A DNA stretch of 35,236 bases from Pontiellaceae bacterium B12219 (GTDB lineage Bacteria; Verrucomicrobiota; Kiritimatiellia; Kiritimatiellales; Pontiellaceae): positions 1-35,236 of the forward strand of contig JARNMJ010000048.1 of NCBI GenBank assembly GCA_029432795.1, read 5' to 3'. The notes beneath the pieces were generated by a model. It was not told the DNA's origin and did no database searches. It saw only the letters and a list, made by a program, of their open reading frames with translations. Within the stretch, counting starts at the first letter, position 1, and every line of letters begins with the position of its first letter. A program made the position numbers and the translations under genes. Shown here piece by piece: positions 9,694 to 18,767 of the stretch.

Positions 9694-10425
9694 TCAAGGA
9701 GAAACGGGACTTATATGGTCCGTTTTGAGCCAGCCCTGTTTGCCGTCGTATTCCACTTCGACCCATCCTTTCGAGTCGGTACTGCGTTGCTGCACCAGAG
9801 CTCCGAGCGGCAATTTGAAATGGGCGGTGCTGCCTTCCACCGGGCCGAACAGCGCGGTGGCTTCTGTTTTCACAACGACCCATTCGGGATGAATGCTGAG
9901 CTGTCGCCACTGATTCCATCCAAAGCCGGCGAGCAGAAGCAGAGCGGCGGGAATGAGGCCGATTCTGAGCAGCGTCCGCCGGGCTCGTTTCATGAAAAGC
10001 ATCAGAATGAAAAGCAGTGTGAGCAGGATATATCCAATGACGGCCACAATAATCCATTCACTGCGAGATAGACTGTAGAACAGATGCTCGAGGAAGGAGG
10101 GCGTGGATTCGATGGCTCCGGCAGCGTTCAGCGCAAAATGCAGGTTGGCTTTAATGTCCGGATCGCGCGGCAGATCATACCAGGCGGTGCGGTAGTGGCT
10201 TACGGCTTTGGGCAGATCGCTGTCCTTGAAGCAGGCATTGGCCAGGTTGTAGTGCAGTTCAGGATTATCAATGCCGCGCTCAATCAGACTTTCATACAGC
10301 AGAACGGCTTCGGCATATCGCCCCTCGTCGTAGGCGGTCTGTGCTTTCTGAAACGATTCATCCTGCGCCTGCGCTGTTGCAAGGCAGAGCAGCAGGCCGA
10401 TGATTATGCGGAGGAATTTGTTCAT
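9694..10425 (-). CDS. batE: BatE-like protein: TPR, two TM helices and SH3b domain
   Basis: 243 residues from the ATG at 10425, which overlaps the batD stop (ATGA). Order: signal peptide (MNKFLRIIIGLLLCLATAQA), tetratricopeptide repeats (AQTAYDEGRYAEAVLLYESL and ELHYNLANACFKDSDLPKAV), two membrane helices (WIIVAVIGYILLTLLFILML and LIPAALLLLAGFGW), then a C-terminal bacterial SH3-like domain (GWVEVEYDGKQGWLKTDHI). This order is characteristic of BatE in aerotolerance-type operons, where Bat proteins are thought to form an envelope complex with BatA/B. Molecular function unproven in the family. Confidence 0.85.
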   Translation of the reverse strand: MNKFLRIIIGLLLCLATAQAQDESFQKAQTAYDEGRYAEAVLLYESLIERGIDNPELHYNLANACFKDSDLPKAVSHYRTAWYDLPRDPDIKANLHFALNAAGAIESTPSFLEHLFYSLSRSEWIIVAVIGYILLTLLFILMLFMKRARRTLLRIGLIPAALLLLAGFGWNQWRQLSIHPEWVVVKTEATALFGPVEGSTAHFKLPLGALVQQRSTDSKGWVEVEYDGKQGWLKTDHISPVSP

Positions 10426-12194
10426 AGCCGGACCCTTTCGCATTTTTTCAGTGTAGACGTGAGTTCATTCAGGAGCGCCTTCATTTCGTCGGGCGCGAGG
10501 GGCGCCTCGGCGGTGAAACCGTAGCGCCGCTGTTCGATGGTATTGAACAGGTGATCGATGGATTCCTGCTGTTTTGGAAATGCCGTGCGTACCGCCGGCA
10601 GCGCGACTTCGCCGGGGGCGAGGTTGAGGCGGTGGCCGAAATATTCAGCAAGCGCATTCCAAAGGGCTTCATAGAAAGCTTTTTCATCCTTTTTACGCCG
10701 CGCCTGTTCTGCAAGCTGAACATGCCGCCGGGCGGCTTTCGGCGCTTTCTGTCGGCGGGCGAGGGCAACATTTCCGGCCAGCTGATTGTGCCGGGCCGTT
10801 CCGCCGGCAATCAGGAGCAGCAGGAGAAGGGGAAGTGCCAGCAATACCCGGAAGAGCGGTTGTTCGTACCACGTACGGTCTGCCGCGGTTTTCCAATGTT
10901 CGGGAGCGGGTTTCAGATAAACAATATCGCGTCCAAGGATTTTGGTTTCCTGCTGAATCGTACTGGGTACGGTGGCAATCACCTGTGCGGCCTGCTGTGG
11001 TGCGGCCTCGACGGTCACCGGGAAGGGGCCCCGGGTGATGGTACGGAAATCGGTGGTCTTGGTGTTGAAATAGGAAAATGAAATGGGCGGAACATTGGTT
11101 ACGGAATCCGACTTTGGAATCAATACCTGCTCGAAGAGAATTTCGTTGGGTTTATCGGTGGCGACGGTGCGGGCATCGTAGAGTTTAAAGGCATGGTTTT
11201 CCTGTATCTTCGGCGGCGTGATCTGAGTCAGGTTTCCATTGCCGGCAATGCGCATTTTGATGGTGATCGGCTCACCGGCCTTCACTTTGTTCGGCCCGAT
11301 GCTGACATCAAAATCAAAAATACCAACCCCGCCGGTAAAGGAGTCCGGCCTTCCGGCCATTGGAACCGGCTGCACATTGACCTGCAGTTTATTGCAATCG
11401 AGTACAAACGGACGGGTTTCCTGACGCCCGAAAAAGTCGCCGAAGAACGGGTCGTCGAACCCGTAAGAGCGGCGCTCCTGCCGGGGAATGATGACATTCA
11501 TCTGCACCTGCGGCTGGAAGGTGAAGGTGCCGGCTGTGAGGGTGCGGGCGGTGGCAGCCAGTGTGTAGACCTTGAATATGGAGCCGTTGACTTCTTCACG
11601 GGTCTGATCGATGACGTTCCAGGCGAGGTCGCCGTCCATGCCGTTTTCGGGCATACCGCCGCGAATCGCAAAGTTGCCGTCAATCTGCACGCCATCGCGA
11701 ATAAACACTTTCAAGGTCAGCTCGAAGGGTTCCTGCACATGCGGCGCATGGCGGTCGGTACTGATTTCGGAATACATCAGCTCCGAAATTTCCTGCGCTT
11801 TTTTATCGTCGCTGGGTTTAATGACCCGCAGCTGCGCGGTCAGTTCTTTTTGGCCGCCTTTGTATTGAGCGGTCACGGGGCCGATTGTGAAGTCGCCCAC
11901 TTTTGACGGGGTGACCAGATAGGTGTGCACCACCTTGGAGGTACGTTTCATATTCACAATGCGCGTTTCCGAGCTTTGGCCCTGATACTGAATATTCAGC
12001 CCGTCAACCTGAGGGATATCCAATGCGTTTCCGCTGGCATTAATGAATTCAACTTTGAGAACGGCGCGGTCGAGCAGACTGATCAGCTGCGGCTCAATCG
12101 ACATCTGTACATCGGCCGCCAAGGCCGAGAGGGCACAGAAAAAGATTCCAAGGATTGGAAGTATTCGTTTCAAATTTCGAATTTCGAATTTCAA
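10422..12194 (-). CDS. batD: BatD (oxygen-tolerance family) membrane protein
   Basis: About 590 residues from TTG at 12194, chosen because TAGGAG lies 8 nt upstream; TTG 12212 or a later TTG are alternatives. Signal peptide (RILPILGIFFCALSALAA) followed by Ig-like beta domains (QPQLISLLDRAVLKVEF region; VGDFTIGPVTAQYKGG; GVGIFDFDVSIGPNKVKAGEPI), then a membrane helix (LFRVLLALPLLLLLLIAGG) and a cytoplasmic helical tail. The first eight or so codons are a heptamer array (12168-12202), and the signal peptide carries palindrome copy 7. Overlaps batE by ATGA. The BatD role is presumed structural in the MoxR/Bat envelope machinery. Confidence 0.88.
   Translation of the reverse strand: MKFEIRNLKRILPILGIFFCALSALAADVQMSIEPQLISLLDRAVLKVEFINASGNALDIPQVDGLNIQYQGQSSETRIVNMKRTSKVVHTYLVTPSKVGDFTIGPVTAQYKGGQKELTAQLRVIKPSDDKKAQEISELMYSEISTDRHAPHVQEPFELTLKVFIRDGVQIDGNFAIRGGMPENGMDGDLAWNVIDQTREEVNGSIFKVYTLAATARTLTAGTFTFQPQVQMNVIIPRQERRSYGFDDPFFGDFFGRQETRPFVLDCNKLQVNVQPVPMAGRPDSFTGGVGIFDFDVSIGPNKVKAGEPITIKMRIAGNGNLTQITPPKIQENHAFKLYDARTVATDKPNEILFEQVLIPKSDSVTNVPPISFSYFNTKTTDFRTITRGPFPVTVEAAPQQAAQVIATVPSTIQQETKILGRDIVYLKPAPEHWKTAADRTWYEQPLFRVLLALPLLLLLLIAGGTARHNQLAGNVALARRQKAPKAARRHVQLAEQARRKKDEKAFYEALWNALAEYFGHRLNLAPGEVALPAVRTAFPKQQESIDHLFNTIEQRRYGFTAEAPLAPDEMKALLNELTSTLKKCERVRL
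12146..12160. repeat. TTCCA-N5-TGGAA palindrome, copy 7 (in batD signal peptide)
   Basis: TTCCAAGGATTGGAA on +; on the coding strand it gives L-P-I-L-G-I, a different frame from the glycosyltransferase copy. Confidence 0.9.
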
Positions 12195-12202
12195 GTTTCT
12201 GA
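12168..12202. repeat. Heptamer array (TTTCGAA-like, five units) at the batC/batD junction
   Basis: Five consecutive heptamers on +: TTTCAAA, TTTCGAA twice, TTTCAAG, TTTCTGA. The array overlaps the batD start and encodes K-F-E-I-R-N-L-K ahead of the signal peptide. Confidence 0.85.
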
Positions 12203-12205
12203 CTC

Positions 12206-12775
12206 CTACCAATCTTTATCCACTCTAACAGGAGCGCCCATCACCGGATGCAGCTGCAACCGCTTGTTTTCTTCATCCTGTTTCATCGCGTCCAGCAAGC
12301 GTTCCGCTTCATCCTGACTCATCTGTTCGGCCGTGGGAGGCGGTTGCTGTGCCTGATCCTGACTCTGCTGATTCTGTTGATCCTGTTGGTTCTGGTCTTC
12401 GTTCTGCTGATCATCCTGATTCTGTTGATCCTGGTTCTGCTGGTCTTGATTCTGATCCTGATTTTGGTCCTGGTTCTGTTGGTCCTGGTTCTGTTGATCT
12501 TCGTTCTGTTGGTCTTCGTTCTGTTGGTCCTGATTCTGTTCCTGATTTTCCTGTTCCTGCTCTTGGTCCAGCAGTTCTTTCAGTCGCAGCAGTTTCCCGT
12601 TATCCGGAAAAATGGAGAGGCCGGTATAGACGAGGTTGCTCGCTCCGGCGGAATTGCCCTGCACATACATGCTGGCGGCCGGGTGAAAATAGGTGGAATC
12701 AATATCAACCTCGGCCTCCTGTGCGGATACGGCGACCGCCAGCGCGGTCAATAGAATGGTTAGGGTCGTCTTCAT
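12206..12775 (-). CDS. batC: BatC-like exported protein with long Gln/Asn/Asp repeat
   Basis: 189 residues: signal peptide (MKTTLTILLTALAVAVSAQ), a short conserved part (SMYVQGNSAGASNLVYTGL), then about 74 residues (71-144) of almost only Q, N, D and E, and a C-terminal QDEAERLLDAMKQDEEN...DKDW. The AERLLDAM-x-DE and terminal KDW are typical of BatC in these operons. The acidic, glutamine-rich tract has prion-like composition and is encoded by imperfect repeats that could vary in copy number. Its ATG overlaps the TPR gene stop (ATGA). Naming by context and C-terminal motif. Confidence 0.75.
   Translation of the reverse strand: MKTTLTILLTALAVAVSAQEAEVDIDSTYFHPAASMYVQGNSAGASNLVYTGLSIFPDNGKLLRLKELLDQEQEQENQEQNQDQQNEDQQNEDQQNQDQQNQDQNQDQNQDQQNQDQQNQDDQQNEDQNQQDQQNQQSQDQAQQPPPTAEQMSQDEAERLLDAMKQDEENKRLQLHPVMGAPVRVDKDW
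12344..12565. repeat. Imperfect codon-level repeat encoding the Q/N/D tract
   Basis: Reiterated CTG-TT-CTGGTCCTG-type units of 6 to 18 bp on +, within the batC-like gene. Such repeats invite slippage or recombination length changes in multiples of three. Confidence 0.85.
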
Positions 12776-13767
12776 TGTGCAATATTGGTGGTCGGGAACA
12801 GGTCCTGGATGATCTTCAGGATTTCCTCATTCTTCTTAATGGTCTCTTCGTATCGTTTCTTCAAATCGGGTTTCAGATCAAATGCATATTTTCGCTCATC
12901 CGTCTCGGTTGTCAACCGTTGGGCGGCGAGCATGTATTGATAGTCGGCAATATACTGGAATGCAGTCTTCAGGTCGATCTCGGCCGCTTCAACCGCGAGT
13001 GCCAGCATTTCGAGGCGTTCATCGATTTTCGGCAGATACTGCTGCGACTCCCCATGGTTCGGATCCACATTCTCCAGAATATGCTTAAACTGCTTTTCGG
13101 CCAACTGGTAGTTTTTCTGTGCGTCCTTCGCTTTGTATTGCGGGAGCAACGATTCCGCCTGATCAAAATACCAGCGGCCCAGGTTGTATTCGAGTTGCAG
13201 CCGCAGGTTTCCGGCCCGCTCAAAGTTTTGTTTGCTCTCCAGATCGTCGGGTTGCAGCAGCATCGACTTTTCATACATATCCATCGCCTGAAATGCGAGT
13301 TCGATGGCCTGACTGATCTGTTCGGTCTGGGTGAGTTCCGTGGTGCGCGCCAGCAATGCATTGCCCCGGTTGAAATAGGCCTTTGCCTGCAGCTCAAGAT
13401 CGGTTGTGCGCAGGGCTTCGTTAAAGGCCTCCGCTGCCGCTTCATAATCGCCGGAGCGGTAGAGGGCATTACCGAGGTTGTAGTTTCCAAGGTCTGGAAA
13501 TTCCAATACGGTTTTTTTAAGCTGTTGCACGGCATTGGTGTAATCGCCTGCATGATAAGCTTTCAGGCCTTTCCGCATCGACGAACGCGGCGTGTCTTCC
13601 GCCTGAGCGGTCAGCACACTGAAGCTGAGCATGACGACCGCAGATAGACGCCATGTTATTTGCGATTGCCGATTGCCGATTGTTGATTGAATAGCAGAGG
13701 GGAGGCGTATGCCAAGGAGCCCAATCGTCAATCGGCAATCAGTAATCTTCAATAATAAATTGCTCAT
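12772..13767 (-). CDS. TPR-repeat protein of the Bat operon
   Basis: 331 residues from the ATG at 13767, which overlaps the batB stop (ATGA) and follows GGAGGAG. After an odd 40-residue lead encoded by inverted heptamer arrays comes a signal-peptide core (LSAVVMLSFSVLTAQA, about 41-56). Tetratricopeptide units follow: GLKAYHAGDYTNAVQQLKKT, YNLGNALYRSGDYEAAAEAF, AYFNRGNALLA, EYNLGRWYFDQAESLL. Such TPR proteins accompany BatA/B and probably scaffold the complex in the periplasm. The stop overlaps the next gene's ATG. The extended N terminus ahead of the signal core may impair or delay export unless a later start is used. Confidence 0.85.
   Translation of the reverse strand: MSNLLLKITDCRLTIGLLGIRLPSAIQSTIGNRQSQITWRLSAVVMLSFSVLTAQAEDTPRSSMRKGLKAYHAGDYTNAVQQLKKTVLEFPDLGNYNLGNALYRSGDYEAAAEAFNEALRTTDLELQAKAYFNRGNALLARTTELTQTEQISQAIELAFQAMDMYEKSMLLQPDDLESKQNFERAGNLRLQLEYNLGRWYFDQAESLLPQYKAKDAQKNYQLAEKQFKHILENVDPNHGESQQYLPKIDERLEMLALAVEAAEIDLKTAFQYIADYQYMLAAQRLTTETDERKYAFDLKPDLKKRYEETIKKNEEILKIIQDLFPTTNIAQ
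13485..13499. repeat. TTCCA-N5-TGGAA palindrome, copy 8 (in TPR gene)
   Basis: Encodes part of E-F-P-D-L-G-N in the first TPR region. Confidence 0.9.
13664..13756. repeat. Inverted pair of heptamer arrays at the batB/TPR junction
   Basis: Left arm: four heptamers of GATTGCC type (13664-13691). Right arm: five of CAATCGG type (13722-13756), the reverse complement of the left word. Both arms lie inside the first 35 codons of the TPR gene. Confidence 0.88.
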
Positions 13768-14765
13768 CGGTGGCTCCTCCATTTGGTGGGACGAACGGCG
13801 GCTTCGAGGATCAGCAGGAGAATCGCAGCACCGAGGAACCACTGGAAACGTTCATTCCAGGTTTTTGACATACGCGATTCACGGTCTTCGCGCTGCAGTT
13901 CGGCAATGCCCTGTTGGTAAACCCGTTCGAGGCCGAAATCGCCGGGGGCCGAGCGTACGTAGAAACCGCCGGTTTCAAATGCGAGCTGTTCGAGCAGTTT
14001 TTCATTGAGTGCACTTTTCACCACATTGCCTTGCTGGTCTTTCACAAAACCGTCCGAGGTCTGGATCAGGTCGCCTTCGCGGGTGCCCACGCCGATGGCG
14101 AAGACGCGGATCTTTTCTTCTTTGAGTCGCGGCAGCAGGGCGAGCGGATCGCCGGTGTGCCCTTCGCCGTCGGAAATCAGGATGATGACTTTATCGGACT
14201 TCGATTCTTCTCCTTTCTCAAAGCTTTCGATGGAGGTTTCCAATGCCTGGAAAAGGTCAGTGCCGCCGACGGGAACAATGCCGGCATAGACATCGTCGAG
14301 CATCATCATAAACGCGGCGTAGTCGATGGTGGCGGGGCATTGCAGAAAGGCATCGCCGGCAAATGCCACAAGGCCGATGCGGTCGCCGTTGAGTTCATTC
14401 ACCAGATCGCGGATACCCCATTTGGCCTGTTGCAGGCGGTTGGGTTTGATATCCTGTGCGAGCATACTCTTGGAGGTGTCGAGCGCCACCAGAATGCTCA
14501 GTCCGCGCTGCTGGACCTTTTCCCATTTGAAACCCCATTGGGGGCGGGCCAGTGCGGCAATTGCCAGCGCGATGATTACCGTGCGGATGAAATTTTTGAA
14601 GCGCTGACGGCTGGGCGAAAGATAGGGAATCATGGTGCTCCACAGGCCTTCATCGCTCATTCGTTTCAGGAGGGCGAGGCGGCGTCTGAGCATCAGCCCG
14701 GTAATCAGCAGGAACGGCAGCAATGCCAGCAGCCAAAGCAGGATGTCGGGATTATTCCATTTCAT
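13764..14765 (-). CDS. batB: BatB: VWA-domain membrane protein
   Basis: 333 residues: N-terminal membrane helix (ILLWLLALLPFLLITGLML), second helix (TVIIALAIAALA), von Willebrand A domain with an intact MIDAS (D96-x-S98-x-S100 in LDTSKSM, T in GGTDL, D in ISDGEGH), and a C-terminal helix (FLGAAILLLILEAA). This is the standard BatA/BatB build: a metal-dependent adhesion-type domain held at the inner membrane. Start ATG overlaps the batA stop (TAATG). Palindrome copy 9 lies in the VWA domain, read as F-Q-A-L-E. Confidence 0.93.
   Translation of the reverse strand: MKWNNPDILLWLLALLPFLLITGLMLRRRLALLKRMSDEGLWSTMIPYLSPSRQRFKNFIRTVIIALAIAALARPQWGFKWEKVQQRGLSILVALDTSKSMLAQDIKPNRLQQAKWGIRDLVNELNGDRIGLVAFAGDAFLQCPATIDYAAFMMMLDDVYAGIVPVGGTDLFQALETSIESFEKGEESKSDKVIILISDGEGHTGDPLALLPRLKEEKIRVFAIGVGTREGDLIQTSDGFVKDQQGNVVKSALNEKLLEQLAFETGGFYVRSAPGDFGLERVYQQGIAELQREDRESRMSKTWNERFQWFLGAAILLLILEAAVRPTKWRSHR
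14238..14252. repeat. TTCCA-N5-TGGAA palindrome, copy 9 (in batB)
   Basis: TTCCAATGCCTGGAA on +. Confidence 0.9.
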
Positions 14766-15727
14766 TACGGCAACCTCCCGATGCGTGTGAGTGACAGCAG
14801 TTGTTCCAGCCCGAGGAACAGAATACCCGCCAAAATCCAGCCTTTGGAGGTTTCTTCAAACCGGGTAAACCGTTCGACTTCTATTTCGGTTTTTTCAAGC
14901 AGATCGATTTCGTCGTACACCGCCTCGAGGGTTTCAAGATCCTTGGCACGGTAAAATTTGGCGTTGGTGGTTTCGGCAATTTTTTTTAGCGAATCTTCAT
15001 CCACTTCCTGCCGCTGCATAAAGAATCCAGTTCGGGCTCCGCCGGCCCCGATGGTGTAGATTTTGATACCGAGTGCTTCCGCGGCACTGGCCGCATTTTC
15101 CGGTGCGAGTGTGCCGTGGTTGTTGGCGCCGTCGGTCAGCAGAATGATGACTTTGCTTTTGGCTTCGCTTTCGCGCAGGCGGTTGATGGCGGAGGCGATC
15201 CCGTCGCCGATGGCGGTCCGATTGCCATCGAGCATGCCGGTGTGCAGGCCTTCCATGCGTTGGTTCAGCCAGCCGTGGTCCAGCGTGAGCGGAGCAACGG
15301 CGTAGGGCAGGGTGGCAAAGGCCACGATGCCAATCCGGTCGTCCGGCCGGTTTTCGAGGAAACGGGTAATCACTTCTTTGGATGCCTCCAGGCGGCTCAT
15401 GCGTTTGCCGAATTTCTGGAAATCCTGTGTGTCCATCGATCCCGAAAGGTCAACCAGCAGGATAATGTCTACGGCTTCAGTGCGCACCCGGCTGTCGTCC
15501 AGTCCCCGCTGCGGACGGGCCAGAGCCACAATCAGGCAGATGAGGCCGAGCGTGTAAAAGATCGGGAGAATGGGCTGCAGGCGCACGCGCCAGCTGACAG
15601 GCAGCCCTTTAAGCACGTTGCTGTTGCTGAACTGCATCGACTGTTTCCGTACCATAAACAGCCGAAGCCACAGCAGGACCGGAATCAGCAGGAGCAGTAA
15701 TAGAAAATATGGATGAGCCAAATGCAT
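14765..15727 (-). CDS. batA: BatA: VWA-domain membrane protein
   Basis: 320 residues with the same plan as BatB: N-terminal helix (YFLLLLLLIPVLLWLRLF), second helix (ILPIFYTLGLICLIVALA), VWA domain with MIDAS D93-x-S95-x-S97 (VDLSGSM), T in NRTAIGD and D in LTDGANN, and a C-terminal helix (GWILAGILFLGLEQLL). The conserved ALARPQRG before the VWA domain is typical. The gene lies 105 nt after the lipoprotein gene; that gap holds an imperfect hairpin. TAATG overlap with batB. Confidence 0.93.
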   Translation of the reverse strand: MHLAHPYFLLLLLLIPVLLWLRLFMVRKQSMQFSNSNVLKGLPVSWRVRLQPILPIFYTLGLICLIVALARPQRGLDDSRVRTEAVDIILLVDLSGSMDTQDFQKFGKRMSRLEASKEVITRFLENRPDDRIGIVAFATLPYAVAPLTLDHGWLNQRMEGLHTGMLDGNRTAIGDGIASAINRLRESEAKSKVIILLTDGANNHGTLAPENAASAAEALGIKIYTIGAGGARTGFFMQRQEVDEDSLKKIAETTNAKFYRAKDLETLEAVYDEIDLLEKTEIEVERFTRFEETSKGWILAGILFLGLEQLLSLTRIGRLP

Positions 15728-15759
15728 TAGGAATTACCAAGTTCCGATTTTTTATTTGG

Positions 15760-15834
15760 AACCGCGAAGGAACGCAAAGAACGCATAGATTTCCGTTCTT
15801 CTGGTTTTTGCGTTTGCTGTGTTCTTTTGCGGTT
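15760..15834. repeat. Imperfect long hairpin of reiterated words at the lipoprotein/batA junction
   Basis: A 26-nt left arm (15760-15785, containing AACGCAAAG then AACGCATAG) matches the reverse complement of a right arm (15809-15834) at about 20 of 26 positions. The right arm touches the stop codon of the lipoprotein gene. It could form an intra-operon stem-loop. Confidence 0.8.
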
Positions 15835-16813
15835 AATCATTATTTTGTTTTTCCGTGGTTTTCGTTTCTTCGACAAACTGTCTGGTGGTTGAGAAGGCAG
15901 ATTCCATGGTGGTTCGGTCGGGGTGTCCTTTGGCGAATTTTACCATGTCGGCCTGTCGCATGAATTCCTGAAGAATATTGCGTTGTGAGCCATTCAGTTC
16001 AGGGGATTTGCTGAGTTCTTCAATGATCTCTTCAGTGGTCTCATCCGGAGCATTCAGTTTAAAGCGGCCTTCGAGGTAGGAACGGAGAATCAGTGAAAGT
16101 TCGGTATAGAACGGATTGCACTCATCCTTTTCGAGTAAGCCTTTGTTTTTGAGGGCTTCCAGAGCCTGGAGCGCAAGGGTATGCGGAGGAACCGGTGGAG
16201 CTTTCGGGATCAGCGTTTCGCGGTTTTTCCAAAGCTTGGAAGTAATCAGGCCAATCAAAAAGGCAATGGCGGCCGTGCCGAGCACAAACCAGATCCATTG
16301 AGGAATCCGGCCAGGCAGTTTCTGCATGCCTTTAATGTCGGCGATTTGAGAGGTCGCATCGTCTCCGAGCGAACTTTCAACCTGCAGGGTGATACTCGGG
16401 AAATTGGTGGTGAAGGTCTGGTCGCCCAGTGCGCAGGAAATCATGCCGGTGGTTACCAGATGTTCGCCGAGCCGGAATGAGGTGATGGAATAGCGGCTTT
16501 CGGATTGGACGAGAGCATCCTCGCGCGGAATATTTTCCCAATCTCTGGAAAGCAGCACCACGTCTTTTTCTCTTCCGATTTCCGGGAGGGTCAAAATTCC
16601 ATTGGTTGGAAAGTAGGCGGTAACAACCAGCTCAACCGGATCGCCCAGTCGGATGGTTTCGCGGTCGACCGAATACTCTACGGTCAGCTGATTCTGCGGA
16701 TAAACCTTCTGTTCCTCTGGTTTGCAACCCATCAACAGTAGGAGGAGAAGCCATGGAGCAACACGGATGAACGCGGATTTATTAAAAGCTGATCTGTGTT
16801 TTTCTGTGCTCAT
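15833..16813 (-). CDS. Lipoprotein with BatD-like beta domain and DUF4381-like tail
   Basis: 326 residues. Lipobox LMGC gives a lipidated C30 after an unusually long lead (MSTEKHRSAFNKSAFIRVAP) encoded by a repeat tract. A beta-rich domain follows (VEYSVDRETIRLGDPVELVV ... LPEIG), then one membrane helix (WIWFVLGTAAIAFLIGLI, about 173-190) and a cytoplasmic helical region (FYTELSLILRSYLEGRF, then MVKFAKGHPD) like DUF4381/BatD C-terminal parts. A lipoprotein anchor plus a TM helix is odd, so the Cys may instead simply follow an ordinary signal. No Shine-Dalgarno is clear before the ATG. Member of the MoxR/Bat operon; role inferred from context. Confidence 0.75.
   Translation of the reverse strand: MSTEKHRSAFNKSAFIRVAPWLLLLLLMGCKPEEQKVYPQNQLTVEYSVDRETIRLGDPVELVVTAYFPTNGILTLPEIGREKDVVLLSRDWENIPREDALVQSESRYSITSFRLGEHLVTTGMISCALGDQTFTTNFPSITLQVESSLGDDATSQIADIKGMQKLPGRIPQWIWFVLGTAAIAFLIGLITSKLWKNRETLIPKAPPVPPHTLALQALEALKNKGLLEKDECNPFYTELSLILRSYLEGRFKLNAPDETTEEIIEELSKSPELNGSQRNILQEFMRQADMVKFAKGHPDRTTMESAFSTTRQFVEETKTTEKQNND
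16227..16241. repeat. TTCCA-N5-TGGAA palindrome, copy 10 (in lipoprotein gene)
   Basis: TTCCAAAGCTTGGAA; coding strand reads S-K-L-W-K just after the membrane helix. Confidence 0.9.
16597..16611. repeat. TTCCA-N5-TGGAA palindrome, copy 11 (in lipoprotein gene)
   Basis: TTCCATTGGTTGGAA; coding strand reads F-P-T-N-G-I. Confidence 0.9.
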
Positions 16814-16821
16814 CGGTGGTT
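16760..16821. repeat. Inverted reiterated-word tract at the DUF58/lipoprotein junction
   Basis: Left part ACACGGATGAACGCGGAT (about 16761-16778) and right part of the type GATCTGTG...CTGTGCTCATCGGTG are imperfect reverse complements. The tract encodes the first 18 or so residues of the lipoprotein and covers its start codon. Confidence 0.75.
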
Positions 16822-17707
16822 ATCGTCGTTGCGCGCGTTGGCGGAAAAATTTGATGAATTGTTTGTCGTAGGGTTCTCCGGCAAAAAGGCGAATGGTGTC
16901 GATGCCGGCTTTGCGGTGCAGCTCGTCGATTTCCTCAGCCCGGCGGGTTTGTTCAATGCCCAGCTGGGTGCGTACTTTTTTGCTGGAGGTGTCCACCAGT
17001 ACCGTTTCGCCGGTCTCAGCATCGTGCCAGTTGATGAGGCCGATGTCCGGCCAGGCAATTTCCCGTTTGTCGCCAATGATTACGCTGATGAGGTCGTGAC
17101 GGCGCGCTGAGATTTTCAGCAGCTTTTCATAGGCATCATTAAACATGAAATCCGAAATCAGGAAGGTTACATTCTTACGGGTGCTGATGTGGTTGAGGTA
17201 GTCCAGTGCCGGTGCGGCGTTGGTGCCTTTACCTCTCGGTTTGTGCGAGAGCATTTCGCGCACCAGACGCAGCACATGGCGTGTGCCTTTTTTCGGTGGA
17301 ATATATTTTTCAACGTCTTCCGAAAAAAGAATCAATCCGATCCGATCGTTGTTGCGAATGGCCGAAAAAGCGAGAACCGCGGCGACTTCCGCCGCCAGAT
17401 CACGTTTCATCTGAGTTCCGCTGCCGAAGAGGTTGGATGCTGAAATATCGACCACCAGCATGACAGTCATCTCGCGCTCTTCCACAAATTTTTTGATGTG
17501 CGGCGAGCCGGAGCGGGCGGTTACATTCCAGTCGATGGTGCGGATGTCGTCGCCGGGAACGTATTCCCGAACTTCATCGAATTCCATACCGCGCCCTTTA
17601 AAGGTGGAATGGTACTGCCCGGCAAATACGTCGTTCACGGCGTGCTTCGTCGTGATCTGTATTCGCCTGACTTTTTTCAGCAGTTCTTTATGGCTAATTT
17701 CGTTCAT
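16820..17707 (-). CDS. DUF58 domain protein
   Basis: 295 residues with the DUF58 signature EYVPGDDIRTIDWNVTAR at about 49-65. A VWA-like fold follows (LVVDISASNLFG, FSEDVEKYIPP, FLISDFMF), a degenerate MIDAS typical of the family. No membrane segment. DUF58 proteins are nearly always next to moxR and are thought to work with that AAA+ chaperone. It lies between moxR and the bat genes here. Good start at MNEISHKELL. Confidence 0.92.
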   Translation of the reverse strand: MNEISHKELLKKVRRIQITTKHAVNDVFAGQYHSTFKGRGMEFDEVREYVPGDDIRTIDWNVTARSGSPHIKKFVEEREMTVMLVVDISASNLFGSGTQMKRDLAAEVAAVLAFSAIRNNDRIGLILFSEDVEKYIPPKKGTRHVLRLVREMLSHKPRGKGTNAAPALDYLNHISTRKNVTFLISDFMFNDAYEKLLKISARRHDLISVIIGDKREIAWPDIGLINWHDAETGETVLVDTSSKKVRTQLGIEQTRRAEEIDELHRKAGIDTIRLFAGEPYDKQFIKFFRQRAQRR

Positions 17708-17720
17708 GGAATGAAGGCAG

Positions 17721-17779
17721 CGGTCGGAAGGTCAAAGGTCGAAGGTCAGGTGACTTACGATCTTTAGACTTTTGACCAT
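17721..17779. repeat. Heptamer array (AAGGTCA-like) at the moxR/DUF58 junction
   Basis: AAGGTCA, AAGGTCG, AAGGTCA at 17728-17748, with a degenerate unit before, and a loose inverse arm GACTTTTGACC at about 17767-17777. The tract fills the 73-bp gap between the two genes. Confidence 0.82.
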
Positions 17780-17780
17780 G

Positions 17781-18767
17781 TTAAGGAACCGGGATTTCGG
17801 AGAGAATCTTTTCAATAATATCTTCGGAGGTCAGCTCTTCGGCTTCGGCTTCGTAGGAAACGATGACGCGGTGACGCAGGACATCGGGGGCAATTGATTT
17901 TACATCCTGCGGAGTTACATAGCCGCGGCCCTGCATGAAGGCGTGAGCCCGTGCGCCCATGGTCAGATTAATGGTGGCGCGTGGAGAGGCTCCGTATTGC
18001 AGATAGTCCTTGATATCGAGGTTATACTTTTCGGGTTCGCGGGTGGCGAATACGATGCTGAGTATGTAGTCCTTGATTTTTTCATCGATGTAAATTTCAT
18101 CCACAATTTCGCGGGCTTTCAGGATTTCATCGGGATGCAGCACGGATTTGATTTCAATTTCGGTATTGGAGTGCGCCATGCGGTCGAGGATGCGGCGCTC
18201 TTCTTCAAGGGTCGGATAGCCGACTTTGAGCTTGAGCATAAAACGGTCGACCTGCGCTTCGGGAAGCGGATACGTGCCTTCCTGCTCAATCGGGTTTTCC
18301 GTGGCCATCACAAGAAAGGGCTTCGGCAGTTTAAAGGTTTCATCGCCGATTGTGACCTGTTTTTCCTGCATGGCTTCGAGCAGGGCGCTCTGTACTTTCG
18401 CCGGGGCGCGGTTGATTTCGTCGGCCAGAATGATGTTTGCAAAAACGGGTCCTTTTTTAATGATGAAATCGCCGTCTTTCTGATTATAGATCAGGGTGCC
18501 GATGATGTCGGCCGGAAGAAGGTCGGGCGTGAACTGAATGCGTTGAAATGTGGTATCGAGTGCTTGGGCAAGTGTGTTGATGGTGAGGGTTTTAGCCAGT
18601 CCCGGAACGCCTTCCAGCAATACGTGTCCATTAGCCAGCATGCTGATGATCAGTCGGTCGATCAAATATTCCTGACCCACAATCACCTTTGCAATTTCAG
18701 TTTTAAGGGTGGGGACAAATGCACTTTGCTCGCGCACTTTCTGATTAATTACTTCGATTCCCGCCAT
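17781..18767 (-). CDS. moxR: MoxR-family AAA+ ATPase
   Basis: 328 residues. Walker A GVPGLAKT (53-60), Walker B IILADEINRAP (D116, E117), sensor 1 region VMATENPIEQEGTYPLPEAQ, and the arginine-finger region VDRFMLKLK; the C-terminal lid has GASPRATINL. MoxR ATPases act as chaperone-like remodelers, here presumably of the VWA proteins BatA/BatB. AGGAG precedes the ATG and overlaps the stop codon of the 19-codon ORF upstream. Length normal for the family. Confidence 0.96.
   Translation of the reverse strand: MAGIEVINQKVREQSAFVPTLKTEIAKVIVGQEYLIDRLIISMLANGHVLLEGVPGLAKTLTINTLAQALDTTFQRIQFTPDLLPADIIGTLIYNQKDGDFIIKKGPVFANIILADEINRAPAKVQSALLEAMQEKQVTIGDETFKLPKPFLVMATENPIEQEGTYPLPEAQVDRFMLKLKVGYPTLEEERRILDRMAHSNTEIEIKSVLHPDEILKAREIVDEIYIDEKIKDYILSIVFATREPEKYNLDIKDYLQYGASPRATINLTMGARAHAFMQGRGYVTPQDVKSIAPDVLRHRVIVSYEAEAEELTSEDIIEKILSEIPVP

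Follow-up and report, generated by a model that had tools for sequence, protein, structure and literature searches.

Tandem-word arrays at gene junctions of a Pontiellaceae moxR/bat operon as probable cargo-less arms of two families of intervening-sequence-like cassettes

What places short tandem arrays, each built from a different word, at one gene junction after another of the same operon? The question is raised by a moxR/bat operon of Pontiellaceae bacterium B12219 (assembly GCA_029432795.1), which lies on the minus strand of contig JARNMJ010000048.1 in the order moxR, DUF58, lipoprotein, batA, batB, TPR, batC, batD; the whole stretch of DNA analysed, positions 1 to 35,236 of this contig, is called the window below. 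A first-pass annotation, made from the bases alone, had described arrays of about 7-bp units at five junctions of the operon and had ascribed them either to slippage plus inversion or to selection for hairpins that tune expression between subunits. We consider it probable that the window arrays are the cargo-less terminal arms of two families of insertion cassettes, similar to the intervening sequences (IVSs) of 23S rRNA, which sit at gene junctions and turn over fast. A full cassette measures about 430-450 bp: a left arm of some 30 bp of tandem words is followed by a short open reading frame (ORF) and then by the same arm in inverted orientation. Two kinds exist, one with a PF05635 four-helix-bundle cargo and 7-bp words and one with a GxxExxY (PDDEXK_3) cargo and 8-10-bp words; the word is nearly free, unit length and the match between arms being what is conserved. 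The cassette class appears widespread and largely undescribed, and the window arrays look like its empty or partly eroded ends.

Sequence reading and Tandem Repeats Finder (TRF) place arrays at all five junctions, but the unit is 7 bp long at only three of them, J1 (moxR/DUF58, AAGGTCA, or GGTCGAA in another reading of the array), J4 (batB/TPR, GATTGCC) and J5 (batC/batD, TTTCGAA), whereas it is 9 bp at J3 (lipoprotein/batA, GAACGCAAA) and about 10 bp at J2 (DUF58/lipoprotein, ACACGGATGA). This correction is important, since the length of the unit is tied to the type of cargo: J1, J4 and J5 are of the 7-bp cassette kind, and J2 and J3 of the 9-10-bp kind. Four of the five junctions have inverted arms, as the annotation had stated. 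At J1, the heptad arm (GGTCGGAAGGTCAAAGGTCGAAGGTCAG, 17722..17749, minus strand like all arms given here; TRF 17728-17748, period 7) is paired with an imperfect inverted arm (GATCTTTAGACTTTTGACC, 17759..17777) that was recognised from sequence and fold and ends beside the moxR stop. The J2 arm adjoining the DUF58 stop (AACCACCGATGAGCACAGAAAAACACAGATC on the minus strand, 16791..16821) provides both that stop (TAACC) and the lipoprotein ATG, and the second arm (AACACGGATGAACGCGGAT, 16760..16778) has a unit of about 10 bp and is of the GxxExxY type. J3 consists of one arm at 15805..15834 (AACCGCAAAAGAACACAGCAAACGCAAAAA on the minus strand) and a second, with a 9-bp unit of the GxxExxY type, at 15760..15787 (AACCGCGAAGGAACGCAAAGAACGCATA; TRF 15770-15789, period 9). 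J4 has one arm at 13722..13747 (CAATCGTCAATCGGCAATCAGTAATC on the plus strand), in frame in the TPR ORF, and a second at 13663..13689 (CGATTGCCGATTGCCGATTGTTGATTG; unit 7, PF05635 type, 100% matches in TRF), the inverted pair itself being 13664-13682 / 13722-13740. J5 is a single TTTCGAA array at 12168..12199, in frame in the n-region of the BatD signal peptide.

Compared with shuffled sequences, RNA folding gives z-scores of -2.8 at J1, -1.8 at J2, -2.8 at J3, -5.4 at J4 and +0.6 at J5. The expected hairpins thus exceed shuffled controls at three of the five junctions and marginally at J2; J5 is not a hairpin, because its fold has z = +0.6, despite a word that is nearly its own reverse complement. 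Nor are all the arrays intergenic: those at J2, J4 and J5 form part of the first few codons of the ORF that follows, in its reading frame, and the arm sequence is translated as MSTEKHRSAFNKSAFIRVAP... at J2, MSNLLLKITDCRLTIG...IQSTIGNRQSQI... at J4 and ...LKFEIRNLKRI... at J5. Arms are often read in this way as the start of the next gene, to which they contribute the start codon, and in some cases they also end the preceding gene with a stop. N-terminal extensions such as IGNRQSAIGN can be translated arm sequence, which is a warning for annotation. The array-free junctions carry the short overlaps that had been reported for them, TAATG at batA/batB and ATGA at TPR/batC.

The same junctions, read individually in 24 related Pontiellaceae operon loci, reveal what the first-pass annotation had missed, namely that relatives have a gene between the arms at the same junction, that there are two cargo families and that the cargo predicts unit length. 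In six relatives (L055, L059, L060, L064, L067 and L071), GATTGCC arms surround an ORF of about 117 amino acids at moxR/DUF58; this ORF belongs to PF05635 / TIGR02436, the 23S rRNA-intervening sequence protein, a four-helix bundle (family confirmed on one ORF). GCAAAG-type arms with an ORF of about 128 amino acids, assigned to TIGR04256 GxxExxY / PF13366 PDDEXK_3 and likewise confirmed on one ORF, occur at lipoprotein/batA in L056 and L075 and at DUF58/lipoprotein in L069. The inserts between the relatives' arms are about 450 bp long and encode the small protein. In these six moxR/DUF58 cassettes, translation of the downstream arm yields the DUF58 N-terminus (e.g., MSKSIGNRQSAIGNSSEISHRE in L055), and the DUF58 ATG overlaps the stop codon of the cargo.

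Turnover at moxR/DUF58 is rapid. GGTC words are shared by the window and L070, whereas GTGAAAC words are found in L057, L062, L063 and L065, GCAAAG-type words in L056, L058, L068 and L075, CGTAAT words in L074 and GATTGCC arms in L053; a plain hairpin is present in L054, L061 and L072, and arrays are absent from the junction sequences of L066, L073 and L076. The hairpins of L054 and L061 are distinct and non-periodic (GGGCGACATGCATGTCGCCC and GGGCGACACCTGTGTCGCCC) and occupy the same site. The DUF58 tree places the window, with its GGTC element, inside a clade of GTGAAAC relatives, which points to a switch of word in place, and the element type requires 14 changes over 24 taxa, against 15.5 when labels are shuffled on the tree (p = 0.165). 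Strict inheritance of one hairpin per junction is ruled out by the species comparison and the tree. The same data bear on the proposal that the hairpins are selected regulatory elements of the mRNA, acting on stability, on translation start or as RNase III sites to tune the ratio of MoxR and Bat subunits. The folds at J1, J3 and J4 do beat shuffles, the arms sit at translation starts and give start codons, and similar repeats have been described as sites of a global regulator in Geobacter metallireducens (PMC2700814) and of a translational regulator in Beggiatoaceae (PMC4679880). However, the moxR/DUF58 element type has almost no phylogenetic signal, some species have no element at all, the word is unconstrained, J5 forms no hairpin and the same arms bracket unrelated genes genome-wide. 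Tuning of expression between subunits, as had been envisaged, is thus unsupported, and we judge this account very unlikely.

The association between cargo and inverted arms extends far beyond this operon. Flanks were scored by local alignment of the 280 bp upstream of a gene with the reverse complement of the 280 bp downstream, with a cut-off of at least 28; genes were called as longest ORFs, and unit lengths were called automatically on short arms. The window's own genome contains eight PF05635 and five GxxExxY copies, and among the 58 genomes of the relatives search the two families are present in 51 (PF05635, up to 18 copies) and 49 (GxxExxY), respectively. In a set of 71 PF05635 genes from many phyla, including 14 plasmids of named Cyanobacteria, Chloroflexota, Bacteroidota and Spirochaetota, 76% reach the cut-off, as opposed to 1-3% when the windows are shifted by 620 bp along this DNA, and all 14 plasmid loci score at least 33; for GxxExxY, the figures are 74% of 27 genes and 0-4% in shifted windows. 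The background among 313 own-genome genes of 90-250 amino acids is 2.9%. When short genes of the own genome are ranked by their flanking inverted repeats, four of the top seven are PF05635 genes, and a PDDEXK_3 gene and an ExbD gene are also among them, the latter adjoining a PF05635 gene and sharing an arm with its cassette. The arms of the other high-scoring genes (an unassigned 92-amino-acid ORF, a dehydroquinase and a second unassigned ORF) are non-periodic and are probably terminators or chance pairings; the 92-amino-acid ORF, which has no Pfam match (G000 C111:77955-78234, or L016:17956-18234), is flanked by a near-perfect, non-periodic inverted repeat of 22 bp (TTCCCACACTTGCGCAAGTGTG).

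Unit length follows the cargo. For PF05635 the unit is 7 bp in 35 of 41 clear-period arms within the class and in 48 of 61 from other phyla and plasmids, and for GxxExxY it is 8, 9 or 10 bp in 36 of 38. The words themselves vary widely: GTTTGGA, AGGCTTT, GAACAGT, GGTCCAA, AATTCGT and many more accompany PF05635, the cyanobacterial cassettes having heptad arms of the AATTCGT, GATTTAG and AATCCCC types, and GxxExxY genes are accompanied by words of the CCACAGAG, CGCAAAG, CACGAAG, CACAGATT and ACAGGATT types, with CCACAGAG-type arms found also beside GxxExxY in a Bacteroides finegoldii plasmid. The observation that one architecture is realised with unrelated words was therefore right, and it is general. 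Sharing of PF05635 words rises with protein identity, from about 1% below 45% to 72% at 70% or above. That the cargo protein fixes the word is nevertheless ruled out, as proteins 75-81% identical can carry unrelated arms; two PF05635 proteins 81% identical have AATTCGT in both arms (L238) and GAGGTCG in both arms (L241), respectively.

A simpler origin would be that slippage and template-switch (quasipalindrome) mutation by the host generate arrays and inverted arms everywhere, with PF05635 and GxxExxY genes as passengers. Slippage does contribute: two Planktothrix plasmids share 96.8% identity in the region compared, yet one array differs between them by 7 bp and another by 21 bp, with mixing of words, and such whole-unit differences between near-identical plasmids mean that slippage edits arrays once formed. 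Many arrays carry no cargo. Among the long simple repeats of bacteria, heptanucleotides are the most frequent, and slippage of the polymerase in steps of 7 has been suggested (Mrazek et al., 2007, cited in PMC4679880). In about 1.07 Mb sampled from the 4.75 Mb of the own genome, period-7 arrays are far more frequent than chance predicts: 36 per Mb score at least 10, dinucleotide shuffles give 0.9 per Mb, and 77% of these arrays are non-coding where 13% is expected. Yet unit length should be independent of a gene that is only a passenger, whereas it is 7 with PF05635 and 8-10 with GxxExxY; unlinked loci draw repeatedly on a small set of words, the 51 arrays of the own-genome lexicon comprising 27 words and 60 word-sharing pairs against 2.0 expected for letter-shuffled words (arrays counted singly); and the association of cargo with arms, at 74-76% against 0-4%, holds across phyla. 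Slippage plus inversion alone is insufficient because unit length is cargo-specific and both arms switch word together, and as a full account we find it unlikely. Under the cassette reading, slippage would still alter the number of repeats after insertion.

A comparison of a filled with an empty site comes from plasmids. In Nostoc sp. C052, plasmid pC052_A (L239) holds a perfect AATTCGT-armed cassette where five homologous plasmids hold an unrelated stretch of about 230 bp, so the cassette either came with a replacement or was followed by a later deletion. From such presence and absence it may be supposed that cassettes transpose. The cargo protein may act on its own arms. Movement could also be provided in trans by a reverse transcriptase, the cassettes then being retroelements and PF05635 acting like Avd, a protein of diversity-generating retroelements. 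PF05635 proteins are structural homologues of the Avd of phage BPP-1 (PMC10053308), and fold-back copying could yield inverted arms. However, no RVT_1 domain was found in the window's genome, which is 96% complete, or in 37 of the 58 genomes of the relatives search, most of them with PF05635 cassettes. A resident reverse transcriptase is therefore not needed, and this lack, which also sets the elements apart from a diversity-generating retroelement, disfavours the partnership to the point where we find it hardly credible.

The closest known counterpart of the cassettes is the IVS of 23S rRNA. The IVS of Coxiella is 428-444 nucleotides long, folds at -143.3 kcal/mol with a terminal stem of 28 bp, contains the S23 ORF and is cut by RNase III; three tandem heptamers (GACAGAT), variable in number among strains, precede the ORF, and the same paper cites older proposals of IVS mobility (PMC4990558). 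The elements described here resemble the IVSs of Coxiella, Leptospira and Brucella in length, in the inverted terminal stem, in the PF05635-family ORF in the loop and, for Coxiella, in the tandem heptamers. Median arm lengths are 33 and 29 bp, and the RNA duplex of the arms reaches about -42 to -44 kcal/mol, compared with about -20 when shuffled. Complete cassettes of 436 nucleotides (L239; -119.5 kcal/mol, arms pairing at 100%) and 452 nucleotides (L055; -140.3 kcal/mol, arms pairing at 85%) have a stem closing a loop of about 430 nucleotides with an S23 ORF, which the window elements lack. Unlike IVSs, the elements are situated between protein-coding genes or where such genes begin. Their copies are numerous and spread over many phyla, their words are locus-specific, and their second kind carries GxxExxY with longer words. 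Those of the window are by definition not IVSs, because they are sited between moxR/bat genes, outside 23S rRNA; an Rfam search of the window returned zero matches, rRNA included. In RNA, the arms would pair into a stem of about 30 bp and leave the cargo ORF looped out, as in Coxiella, and RNase III may cut this stem, for which its strength is suitable, so that the element would be excised and tolerated without harm inside a polycistronic message.

Several observations weigh against the cassette reading. The window elements have no cargo, and their kinship with cassettes rests on the build of the words, unit length, place and relatives. Many arrays are single-armed, and arms are undetectable at roughly one in four PF05635 and GxxExxY genes, some being cut by contig ends. 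The lexicon test treats each array separately, so that both arms of one hairpin add to word sharing. In six other genomes, the density of arrays did not vary with the number of cargo copies, although the samples were small (0.13-0.2 Mb) and extremes of GC content inflate inverted-pair counts. The sole comparison of filled and empty sites is the replacement of about 230 bp in the Nostoc plasmids and not a clean insertion, no target-site duplication was seen in this one usable pair, no transposase was found among the cargo and active movement was not seen.

Other families of repeats share some of these features. To our knowledge, the short tandemly repeated repetitive sequences (STRRs) of cyanobacteria are single direct arrays without a linked gene. 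Like them, the elements are made of tandem 7-bp words above chance and are mainly intergenic, this unit length being that of J1, J4 and J5 and not of J2 (10) or J3 (9); unlike them, the arms are paired and inverted and bracket a gene. The comparison with STRRs made at the outset was apt, as cyanobacterial PF05635 cassettes carry the same kind of heptad arms. Miniature inverted-repeat transposable elements (MITEs) and hairpins formed by paired repetitive extragenic palindromes (REPINs) have a conserved terminal sequence, which links them to a transposase. The elements are like both in being short hairpins in many copies, non-autonomous beside gene-carrying forms, but here the sequence is free between loci and it is unit length and arm match that are kept. 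The 'global regulator binding sites' of Geobacter metallireducens, in classes 1-3, are tandem 7-8-mers in opposite-strand pairs at variable distance (PMC2700814); the class 2 word TCTCCGTS resembles the GxxExxY-type word CACGGAG (L172), and the sites are read there as binding sites of a protein, the accessible part of the paper reporting no cargo between pairs. The TAACTGA heptamer arrays of Beggiatoaceae lie just upstream of start codons and also occur in Cyanobacteria and Bacteroidetes; in the part of PMC4679880 that was accessible they have one word, are almost all direct, with one inverted case, and have no reported cargo. In full-text literature excluding preprints and most subscription papers, no paper ties these arrays to PF05635 or GxxExxY except for the heptamers of the Coxiella IVS.

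A broader and more tentative proposal, to which we give somewhat less than an even chance, is that the cassettes are selfish elements defined by a rule and not by a sequence: any tandem word, a unit length read by the cargo (7 by the four-helix bundle, 8-10 by GxxExxY) and the same word in both arms, which the cargo protein would recognise, copy or rewrite. Cyanobacterial STRRs, the paired sites of Geobacter and the IVSs of 23S rRNA would then be members or relics of the class. The cassette reading itself brings into one anatomical frame the heptanucleotide repeats of cyanobacteria and other bacteria, the Geobacter paired 'regulator sites', the S23 genes in 23S rRNA and the PF05635 and GxxExxY families. 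Both families are widespread, uncharacterised small proteins of environmental genomes, and either one is predicted to act on those arms that have its characteristic unit length. Plasmid PF05635 cassettes have also been observed within defence operons (L231, L234, L235, L236 and L240; DUF1156/Swt1-HEPN, DISARM drmD, csx2/cas1, cas2/cas1), and 'four helix bundle' genes annotated in CRISPR, DISARM or methylase/HEPN operons may be cassette cargo and not parts of the defence. In Nostoc UHCC 0870 (L242), a PF05635 gene has long, non-heptad inverted arms (GCTAACGCAATGGACTAACGTCCCGCTCCGCTAACGC-like), possibly a further arm type.

The genes of the operon, all on the minus strand, are moxR (17781..18767, matching PF07726 AAA_3), the DUF58 protein gene (16820..17707, PF01882), the lipoprotein gene (15833..16813, without a Pfam match), the VWA genes batA (14765..15727, PF07584) and batB (13764..14765), the TPR protein gene (12772..13767), a batC-like gene with a Gln-rich product (12206..12775, without a Pfam match) and batD (10422..12212, PF13584, the profile scan having covered 10422-12167). 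Within batC, coding repeats of 15/45 bp at 12359-12547 of the window encode a Gln/Asn-rich tract and have no relation to the heptad arrays. A longer compound array, TTTAGGTGTTAGGT, with units of 7/14 bp in up to 13 copies, lies at 2382-2477 of the window, where an ORF on the minus strand ends within it; the PF05635 cassettes L130, L146 and L155 are likewise flanked by TTAGG words.

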